A stretch of 20,583 bases of DNA from a virus. The notes under the pieces were generated by a model. That model worked only from the letters and a program-made list of their open reading frames with translations. It ran no database searches and was not told the DNA's origin. Both the position numbers and the translations under genes were made by a program. Shown piece by piece: positions 6,882-10,407 of this stretch (its first letter is position 1; each line of letters opens with the position of its first letter). The stretch lies in IMG/VR virus record IMGVR_UViG_3300031612_000095, positions 1 through 20,583 of that record. One strand, written 5' to 3'.

Positions 6882-7146
6882 CCTTCTTACCTCCTTGGAT
6901 TAGTGTGAATTTTCTTATTGTTTTCTCTTTGATTTCTCTTGCAACATCTGTGTCCATGTAGGCTTGATCCATAGCATCTCTATCTCCTGCAGAAAATAAG
7001 TAAGATGCATAAGTACCCACATCATCTATAAATTTATCAACATCTTTATGTGGTAGGTGTCTCTTGTTAGTAATATCTATGTCAACCTCACGACACCAAC
7101 ACACAAGCAACTCATGTAGTATGTCTTCAAAGTCTCTGTATTCCAT
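6853..7146 (-). CDS. Hypothetical acidic protein
   Basis: The start is placed at the ATG at 7146 because AGGAGGTGGAT sits directly before it; a GTG two codons earlier falls inside that SD. The 97-residue product is mostly helical and acidic, opening EYRDFEDILHELLVCWCREV and ending DEPEDDVIN. No motif was recognised. It overlaps the gene on each side by 20-29 nt, typical of this block. Confidence 0.65.
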   Translation of the reverse strand: MEYRDFEDILHELLVCWCREVDIDITNKRHLPHKDVDKFIDDVGTYASYLFSAGDRDAMDQAYMDTDVAREIKEKTIRKFTLIQGGKKDEPEDDVIN

Positions 7147-7483
7147 ATCCACCTCCTTTTAAGTATGGTTCTAGATACTTGTCCTCTGTAGGATACTTAA
7201 TAGTAATACATAAATTATCTTCACCACCTTCTTGTTCTAATCTATCCTTACATGGCTTGCAATCTGGTACTGCACCAAATTTATAGCGTTCTCCATGTTT
7301 AGTACTAGGACGACATAATGGTACTGGGATATGGAACTTAAGGATGTACTGGCTTGTATTGATTACTCTGATTCCATAATGTGTTTTCATATAATCCTTT
7401 CTACAGGACATCATCGGTACTGCAAATGTCCTATGGGAATTAATAAGGTGCTGACTTCCTACTATTAGTCCGTACTTATCCAT
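7127..7483 (-). CDS. Hypothetical Cys-containing protein downstream of the structured RNA
   Basis: About 118 residues from the ATG at 7483. The protein was not recognised. It contains C28, C58 and a CKPC pair (about 76-79), which could bind metal, and a glycine-rich C-terminus. No SD is visible before the start: the bases there belong to the end of the folded RNA element at 7494-7636. An internal ATG at the MKTHYG position has a weak AAGGA. Translation may depend on the upstream structure, or the true start may be internal. Confidence 0.55.
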   Translation of the reverse strand: MDKYGLIVGSQHLINSHRTFAVPMMSCRKDYMKTHYGIRVINTSQYILKFHIPVPLCRPSTKHGERYKFGAVPDCKPCKDRLEQEGGEDNLCITIKYPTEDKYLEPYLKGGGYGIQRL

Positions 7484-7493
7484 CACTACATGA

Positions 7494-7636
7494 GTGGATC
7501 TACTCTACGGGGTTGACGTAAGACTAACGCAATGAAAAGTTCGTAGACTCCGATGGTGCGTCATTGTCTTAAGCATAGTAGGCATTTATAGCCCCTGTCA
7601 GCATGGGTCTGGCTACTAAGGAGAGTGCAGATCCAC
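7494..7636 (-). ncRNA. Probable structured RNA or cis-regulatory element (143 nt), family unknown
   Basis: The ends pair over a long distance: GTGGATCT (7494-7501) with AGATCCAC (7629-7636), then ACTCT (7502-7506) with AGAGT (7622-7626) after a 2-nt bulge, 13 Watson-Crick pairs in all. Inside, TAAGAC (7519-7524) pairs with GTCTTA (7566-7571) and AATGA (7531-7535) with TCATT (7561-7565), forming 11 stacked pairs with one 6-nt bulge. TAGCC (7589-7593) pairs with GGCTA (7611-7615); TAGTAG (7576-7581)/CTACTA (7613-7618) is an alternative. No reading frame explains the gap. The strand is inferred from the flanking genes. It could be a processed RNA or a leader controlling the gene at 7483. Confidence 0.6.
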
Positions 7637-7646
7637 CCGATCCTCC

Positions 7647-9819: not shown

Positions 9820-9852
9820 AAAAAACCCTACCAGCCGTCAAAGCCGATAGGG
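9820..9852 (-). terminator. Rho-independent terminator of the 9877-10374 gene
   Basis: In the leftward direction the arm 9852-9843 (CCCTATCGGC) pairs over ten bp, including two G-U pairs, with 9835-9826 (GCTGGTAGGG) around a 7-nt loop, followed at once by six Ts (9825-9820). It lies 25 bp after the gene's stop codon. The stem and U tract are textbook quality and separate this gene from the operon further left. Confidence 0.85.
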
Positions 9853-9876
9853 TTTAAAGCGTTTAAAACTAAAGAG

Positions 9877-10374
9877 TTAGCTCCAGTTTACAAGATCTTT
9901 GATCGTGTACGGTGAGTTGTCCGCAAGTAGCTTAACGTCCGTATCTTTTACGCTACCCTTACCGTGCTTTGTAAAGGGCAGGTGATTGATTGTAGCCTGT
10001 TTAAGCTCTGCATATAGCTTGTCATTCATACCGCTATTGTGTAGAGCGTCAAGGAAGTATGCAAAGCCTGTTATTGGTTGGTATATAGCTTGGAAATTCT
10101 TGCCTGTTACTGGATCAATATTGCAGATGTTTACGTTGCCACCAGATAGCTTATCCTTCTGGGTAACAGAGTCCTTAGTTTGTTTTACTTTAGGAAACTT
10201 AACCACCAAATGCTTAGAGATCATAATAGCAATAGGCTTTTCAGTAGGCTTAGATTTACCATGCAATAGCATAGCGTCAAACATAGCTTGTGGCTGATCT
10301 TTAAACTTGATACCTATAGCCTTTAACTCTTTGTTCCATACTGCCATTTCTGTCTCATGTTGTGTCATAGTCAT
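9877..10374 (-). CDS. Unknown protein in its own transcription unit next to the control region
   Basis: The protein has 165 residues from the ATG at 10374, chosen because AAGGAGTATTACT precedes it; a TTG at 10404 lies before the SD. No family was recognised. It looks soluble and Lys-rich: an N-terminal helix (HETEMAVWNKELKAIGIKF), a beta-rich middle (KPIAIMISKHLVVKFPKVK) and an alpha/beta C-terminal part (YQPITGFAYFLDALHNSGM ... YTIKDLVNWS). It is the first leftward gene beside the divergent region and has a strong terminator straight after it. It is therefore likely an early or separately controlled, highly expressed protein, such as a regulator, host-takeover factor or origin/DNA-binding protein. 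The TTGAC cluster lies directly upstream. Confidence 0.8.
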   Translation of the reverse strand: MTMTQHETEMAVWNKELKAIGIKFKDQPQAMFDAMLLHGKSKPTEKPIAIMISKHLVVKFPKVKQTKDSVTQKDKLSGGNVNICNIDPVTGKNFQAIYQPITGFAYFLDALHNSGMNDKLYAELKQATINHLPFTKHGKGSVKDTDVKLLADNSPYTIKDLVNWS

Positions 10375-10407
10375 AGTAATACTCCTTAGTATAGTTACGG
10401 CCAAGGT

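Follow-up and report, generated by a model that had tools for sequence, protein, structure and literature searches.

The leftward operon of an uncultured phage contains a gap from which a folded RNA had been predicted, and the question this locus raises is whether such an RNA exists and, if it does, what it might do. The window analyzed here is the whole 20,583-nt IMG/VR record IMGVR_UViG_3300031612_000095. On its minus strand, this 20.6-kb record carries a leftward operon encoding RusA, a DnaB-like helicase, a Sak-like annealing protein and a RecE-like exonuclease; genes for terminase, portal and major head protein run rightward. The portal is closest (38%) to those of Pelagibacter phages, and a marine origin of the clade seems likely. 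No phage RNA polymerase of its own was recognized with PHROGs. Because neither the p5121 protein (among named phage records) nor the DNA of the RNA element (in similarity searches of 50,697 phage records) found a match, we refer to the clade as uncultured.

The original prediction placed an element at 7494-7636, in a 160-nt gap preceding a gene that starts at 7483 and lacks a Shine-Dalgarno (SD) sequence. The intergenic gap is actually about 256 nt (7646-7391). The ATG at 7483 lies inside the RNA, and taking it as the start is what made the SD appear to be missing. The conserved start is ATG 7390-7388, with AAAGGA at 7400-7395, and homologues in two relatives (L023 and L026, described below) begin at the equivalent ATG, after AAAGGA(G). 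The gene (7127-7390, minus strand) encodes a protein of 87 aa that matches nothing in Pfam, PHROGs or NCBIfam. Across the gap, no reading frame is conserved: all three sense frames have stops, differently placed. A short frame, MLTGAINACYA, was also rejected; it has no ATG in L037 and contains stops in the window and L009.

Copies of the element in related phages

Using flanking proteins and short DNA patterns, we located further copies in 10 more IMG/VR contigs, all belonging to one podovirus-like clade. These amount to six distinct complete copies, window included, and three partial copies (L022, L023 and L025). The complete copy in 3300031655_000016 is in effect from the same virus as the window, given 99.9% identity over 10 kb. 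The remaining complete copies are those of L009 (IMGVR 3300046532_001609), L026 (3300032820_001736) and L037 (3300009370_000101), a single allele shared by L006 (3300025133_002159) and L010 (3300025108_004767), and another shared by L007 (3300010153_003689) and L008 (3300025118_002467). Alignment of the six full-length homologues delimits a conserved structured RNA of ~200 nt on the sense (minus) strand of the early leftward operon, from 7642 (5' end, uncertain by about 10 nt) to 7435 (3' end). The boundaries first proposed were therefore too narrow, as conservation runs to about 7435 and they exclude the closing helix's 3' strands (7465-7449).

Between the window and L008, the RNA is more conserved than the neighboring genes, with 97% identity in two conserved blocks versus roughly 40-75% (60-nt windows) in the flanking genes. 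A covariance model trained on the six distinct copies matched the full copies at E<=6e-39. When run on 0.5 Mb of loci, it recovered all the full copies and also L022 and L023 (E below 1e-11); the only other hits there were two weak, chance-like matches (E 0.06 and 0.26). Model searches of 369 gammaproteobacterial and 385 alphaproteobacterial genomes, which include no positive control, gave no copy, and none is present in five cultured phages. A 17-base pattern matched bacterial genomes 11 times, fewer than the ~30 expected by chance (our own estimate), and none of these matches was convincing with the covariance model; a pattern match in L030 was also put down to chance.

Covarying helices and a predicted pseudoknot

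Comparison of the copies bears out a folded element in the operon gap, on the minus strand, to which all coordinates below refer. Its outer helix (A) pairs GUGGAUCUGC (7627-7636) with GUAGAUCCAC (7494-7503), and all 10 pairs are kept in all six copies, with U-A, A-U and G-C exchanging at the second. The pairing itself (G7636-C7627 with G7503-C7494) had been correctly foreseen, and compensatory changes occur in five other lineages, but the 8 + 5 bp with a 2-nt bulge originally drawn become 10 continuous bp if G.U is allowed. Nor is helix A the end-to-end closing stem of a multiloop, as had been supposed: both the closing helix and 7510-7507/7473-7470 cross it, which makes the structure a pseudoknot.

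Helices C and D have their 3' strands beyond the interval first proposed. In helix C (P1), the closing helix, UGCUGAC (7597-7603) pairs with GUCAGCA (7449-7455), and A-U is exchanged for G-C in L026 and L037; unconstrained RNAalifold recovers this helix. Helix D (P1b) joins CCUACUAU (7575-7582) to AUAGUAGG (7458-7465), keeps 8/8 pairs, and varies among A-U, G.U and G-C and between C-G and U-A. Helix B (PX) is a hairpin of GUAGCC (7611-7616) and GGCUAU (7588-7593), the loop of which is the 5' strand of helix C; here C-G becomes U-A in L026 and L037, and the two outer pairs are not conserved everywhere. The P2 stem-loop (7519-7571) contains a stem that had been predicted, 7571-7566/7524-7519, and that proved real. 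This outer stem varies in sequence and length, with double (compensatory) changes in five of six pairs on an unforced MAFFT alignment, and the inner part (AUCGG...CUUUCAUU) is conserved. Helix E (P3) pairs CCGU (7507-7510) with ACGG (7470-7473) and shows double changes at every one of its four pairs (CCGU/ACGG, CUGC/GCAG, CCAU/AUGG, CCGC/GCGG, GUAG/CUAC). For this helix, L037 was registered by structure (GUAG/CUAC; one-base shift) and L026 by hand, and as a result helix E looks weaker on the raw MAFFT alignment (75% paired).

From 5' to 3', the strands run A, B, C, B', D, P2, E, A', hairpin, E', D', C'. Since the 3' strand of A lies within the loop of E, and since B crosses C while A crosses C, D and E, the predicted structure is a compound pseudoknot. 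For helices A-E, 97.6% of 210 cells are standard pairs and 9 of 35 pairs are doubly changed, with at least one in each helix; this count uses equal-length strand segments, hand-cut and hand-registered, from helices first spotted by eye. Sliding the partner strand by 1-3 columns, as a control, lowers pairing to 30-43%. An unconstrained RNAalifold run recovers C, D, P2 and E, and 17/36 of its pairs are doubly changed. One caveat here is that the covariation counts rest on six distinct sequences and that pair counts take no account of phylogeny. Agreement of the crossing long-range helices is nonetheless far beyond the controls. As judged from these alignments, covariation shows six helices to be conserved on the coding strand of the operon. 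Of the three results named at the outset as counting against the RNA, none was obtained: covariation is strong, the interval first proposed folds better than shuffled controls, and the gap holds no conserved reading frame. A further 5' hairpin, 7649-7643/7623-7617, fits five of the six copies, but its changes are one-sided only and we do not claim it.

Folding energy is less informative. Relative to dinucleotide shuffles, the sense strand of the interval first proposed folds better (z=-2.9 for 7490-7640 and z=-2.3 for 7494-7636), with weaker values for the antisense (z=-0.7 and -1.3). For the full core, pseudoknot-free energies correspond to z of -0.6 to -2.1, compared to +0.4 to +1.8 for the antisense, and sense folds better than antisense relative to shuffles in 6/6 copies. 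By itself, the folding energy of the full core is unremarkable. Because the nested minimum-free-energy z-scores are weak, we dropped energy as evidence and rest proof of the fold on covariation. On that comparative basis, we regard the element as a real, previously uncatalogued folded RNA of predicted knot-like shape in a phage early operon.

A fixed site next to a variable slot

The RNA lies about 1.6 kb into the leftward gene row. In every contig spanning the site, it is found on the operon strand ahead of the block p6853-p6528-...-RecE-Sak-DnaB-RusA. Homologues of p6853 were called by sequence or, where the copies diverge more, from their position and a by-eye alignment. Unlike the gene immediately downstream of the RNA, which varies, the p6853-p6528 block is constant. 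The slot between the RNA and p6853 holds the 87-aa gene in the window, L023 and L026, holds an endonuclease-VII-like gene in L007/L008 (L008 1317-1736; PHROG 1035, E 2.6e-8), and is empty in L009, L006/L010, L022 and L037. The L007/L008 gene has an HNH-like motif by eye and no Pfam HNH match; it is inserted right behind the RNA, a position suggestive of a homing endonuclease that exploits this conserved site. The 87-aa gene at 7127-7390 is missing from four of the six distinct full copies and from one partial variant, and the RNA remains, which contradicts the earlier idea of a leader dedicated to that gene. L022 and L023 (IMGVR_UViG_3300030382_003499; 522-2463 and 1-511) are two variants of the locus joined at a short gap. 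This apparent assembly join, with and without the 87-aa gene, indicates a presence/absence polymorphism of the cassette. Upstream, the gene is also replaced in L037, and in L006, L008 and L037 an upstream reading frame extends into the 5' portion of the RNA, where it terminates.

Insertions of up to about 190 nt are tolerated immediately 3' of the RNA, before the downstream gene (L026 3255-3425, L023 66-165, L006 1040-1100). Those of L026 and L023, between the closing helix and the start codon, contain a self-closing stem, GGGUUGCUAGG...CCUAGCAACCU, and since they can close on themselves, the ends of the RNA could stay close. The same two insertions share a stem, GGGTTGCTAGG...CCTAGCAACCT, flanking otherwise different sequence.

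No promoter-like or terminator-like site beyond chance flanks the RNA. On the sense strand, intrinsic-terminator-like sites are absent from the RNA to the left end of the window, and none lies downstream of the RNA in L008; these scans cover intrinsic sites. Elsewhere in the window, a strong intrinsic-terminator-like hairpin of 14 pairs (9823-9855, minus strand) ends the leftward gene 9877-10404. The stretch from there to about 9250 has few plausible genes and could contain the promoter region for the leftward operon. A T7-like promoter reading of TTATTAATTCCCATAGGA was rejected, as there is one full copy per genome only and no phage RNA polymerase of its own was seen.

Several small motifs lie close to the RNA. 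A near-invariant 26-nt palindromic hairpin, GGACAU...AUGUCC (GGACATTTGCAGTACCGATGATGTCC; 7405-7430, minus strand), stands directly before the SD. In relatives carrying it there, it is identical or has 1-3 differences, and its loop is also nearly invariant; it is missing at this place in L009 and L037, and is inverted between recE and the next gene in L036/L037. Beyond the window it occurs at L008 1275, L006 1115, L026 3439, L036 618 and L037 9695, and overall it precedes the SD of three different genes. This palindrome is a module separate from the RNA, and is possibly mobile or protein-binding. An 11-mer, TTAATTCCCAT, repeats on the same strand near the starts of several small genes (window 9398, 8728 and 7443, minus strand; L026 2601 and 3427; L009 9031, 9387 and 10658). 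Finally, window positions 7636-7616 (minus strand) and their L009 equivalent could form a 6-codon micro-ORF, GTG GAT CTG CAC TCT CCT TAG, preceded by an SD-like AAGGAGG. This frame is the C-terminus of the upstream ORF in L006/L008, and is not kept in L026.

Relation to known RNAs

The expectation that the element matches no known riboswitch, intron or ribozyme held up. Rfam 15 at the gathering threshold gave no match for the window or for L006, L008, L009 and L023, and permissive scans of the element in three copies (window, L026, L037) yielded either no match or hits well under threshold that are attributable to chance. In the window and relatives, there was no match to RF01745 or RF01761 (manA and wcaG), to the RF00028 group I core, or to the group II and ribozyme families of Rfam. 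ARAGORN found no tRNA or tmRNA, and limited literature searches found no description of this RNA. By these comparisons, the RNA represents a new structured-RNA family, absent from Rfam. Whether it is also a new kind of RNA depends on its function; that it is a functionally new phage RNA machine, such as a ribozyme or an RNA that binds host ribosome, polymerase or defense protein via the knotted core, we would call a long shot.

In kind, its nearest counterparts are orphan structured RNAs such as manA and wcaG, which come mainly from marine metagenomes and phages and precede varied genes (PMC2864571). The likeness lies in an orphan structured RNA, a phage setting and varied following genes. The differences are that manA and wcaG belong to T4-like cyanophages, whereas the RNA described here is found in other phages, at a fixed early-operon place and with no link to metabolic genes. 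Another pseudoknotted RNA within a long operon is the epsC motif, or EAR RNA, of the Bacillus eps operon, where it has an antitermination role; that family, too, gave no Rfam match here. GOLLD, ROOL and OLE (PMC12286853) are likewise elaborate conserved bacterial or phage RNAs, but the present RNA is much smaller, with no Rfam match or sign of oligomers.

Possible functions

The reading we tentatively favor, with a probability of about 0.42, is that of a cis-acting, operon-internal RNA that would gate expression of downstream genes. The RNA would be made as part of the leftward early transcript. After transcription, the loop of hairpin B would capture the GUCAGCA strand near the 3' end of the RNA, and this capture would close the long C/D helix. 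Closure would in turn bring the invariant, anti-SD-like UCUCCU (7619-7624, minus strand) near the ribosome-binding site of the following gene, so that downstream translation would depend on folding, or on a protein or small molecule bound at the conserved loops. A ligand, a protein partner and an alternative fold are parts of this predicted mechanism only. The RNA would act on the slot rather than on one dedicated gene, in which case the next gene can change.

Consistent with cis control are the helices and their covariation, the fixed genomic place on the operon strand, and the fact that promoter-like and terminator-like sites, such as would set off a free-standing gene, do not exceed chance. 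By direct reading, UCUCCU is present in 6/6 copies and lies 5' of the closing helix, with the SD 3' of it. UCUCCU is complementary to SD sequences, and could pair either upstream (7649-7643) or with the downstream SD. On the other hand, anti-SD complementarity comes cheap, and the UCUCCU-SD pairing is predicted from complementarity. A translational leader would also not usually have its immediate downstream gene replaced.

The same data may be compatible with processing into a free RNA. A trans-acting noncoding RNA processed from the operon transcript, serving for example as a decoy, a regulator of host RNA or a scaffold that binds a protein of phage or host, would explain why both neighbors change and the RNA stays, and would sit well with the compact pseudoknotted fold, the strongly conserved loops and the tolerance of insertions just 3' of the RNA. 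We nevertheless consider it less probable than cis control, as the RNA is always embedded in this one operon in sense orientation, flanking promoter-like or terminator-like sites do not exceed chance, and sequence conservation continues toward the SD region.

Less probable is an element of the nascent RNA that modifies host RNA polymerase as it transcribes, by processive antitermination or anti-pausing. HK022 put, an RNA of about 70 nt that folds into two simple stem-loops and lies near early promoters, works with no dedicated protein (PMC9378689), and by analogy would offer the nearest mechanism to borrow (PMC9378689). Like put, the RNA could serve any downstream gene of a phage early operon, which fits its fixed site and the lack of a recognizable phage RNA polymerase. 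In contrast to put, it is about three times as long, has crossing helices and a different fold, lies mid-operon rather than at a promoter, and falls outside the size and fold that define put. After serious consideration we keep antitermination as a rival to cis control, because scans for intrinsic terminators downstream, in the window and in L008, found none.

In group I introns, the strand order is P7-5', P3-3', P8, P7-3'. The order of helix E-5', A-3', hairpin, E-3' resembles this P3-P8-P7 pseudoknot, and an HNH/endonuclease-VII-like gene adjoins the RNA in one lineage (L007/L008), features that might suggest a self-cleaving or splicing RNA, or a remnant of one, such as a group I-like intron with its homing endonuclease. 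We consider this quite improbable: the enclosing C/D helix has no group I counterpart, the Rfam group I, group II and ribozyme searches of window and relatives were empty, and no copy-free allele was found. In every copy the RNA lies between complete genes, with SD and start after it, and hence interrupts no exon. A conserved DNA signal that only resembles RNA (an origin, recombination or packaging site) might account for the very high identity in two blocks and the adjoining recombination genes, but is scarcely credible given that six helices show compensatory changes, including several that are long-range and cross others, and that sense folds better than antisense relative to shuffles in every copy. 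The remaining weight we leave to causes not listed here.

Significance

Large pseudoknotted RNAs so strongly conserved usually have a specific job, be it catalysis or binding of a ligand, protein, ribosome or polymerase. This RNA is placed ahead of the phage replication and recombination genes. All sampled genomes of the clade that span the site retain it, under tighter conservation than the adjacent genes. It adds to the catalogue a family absent from Rfam, with a defined sequence, a predicted fold and natural variants available for direct testing.
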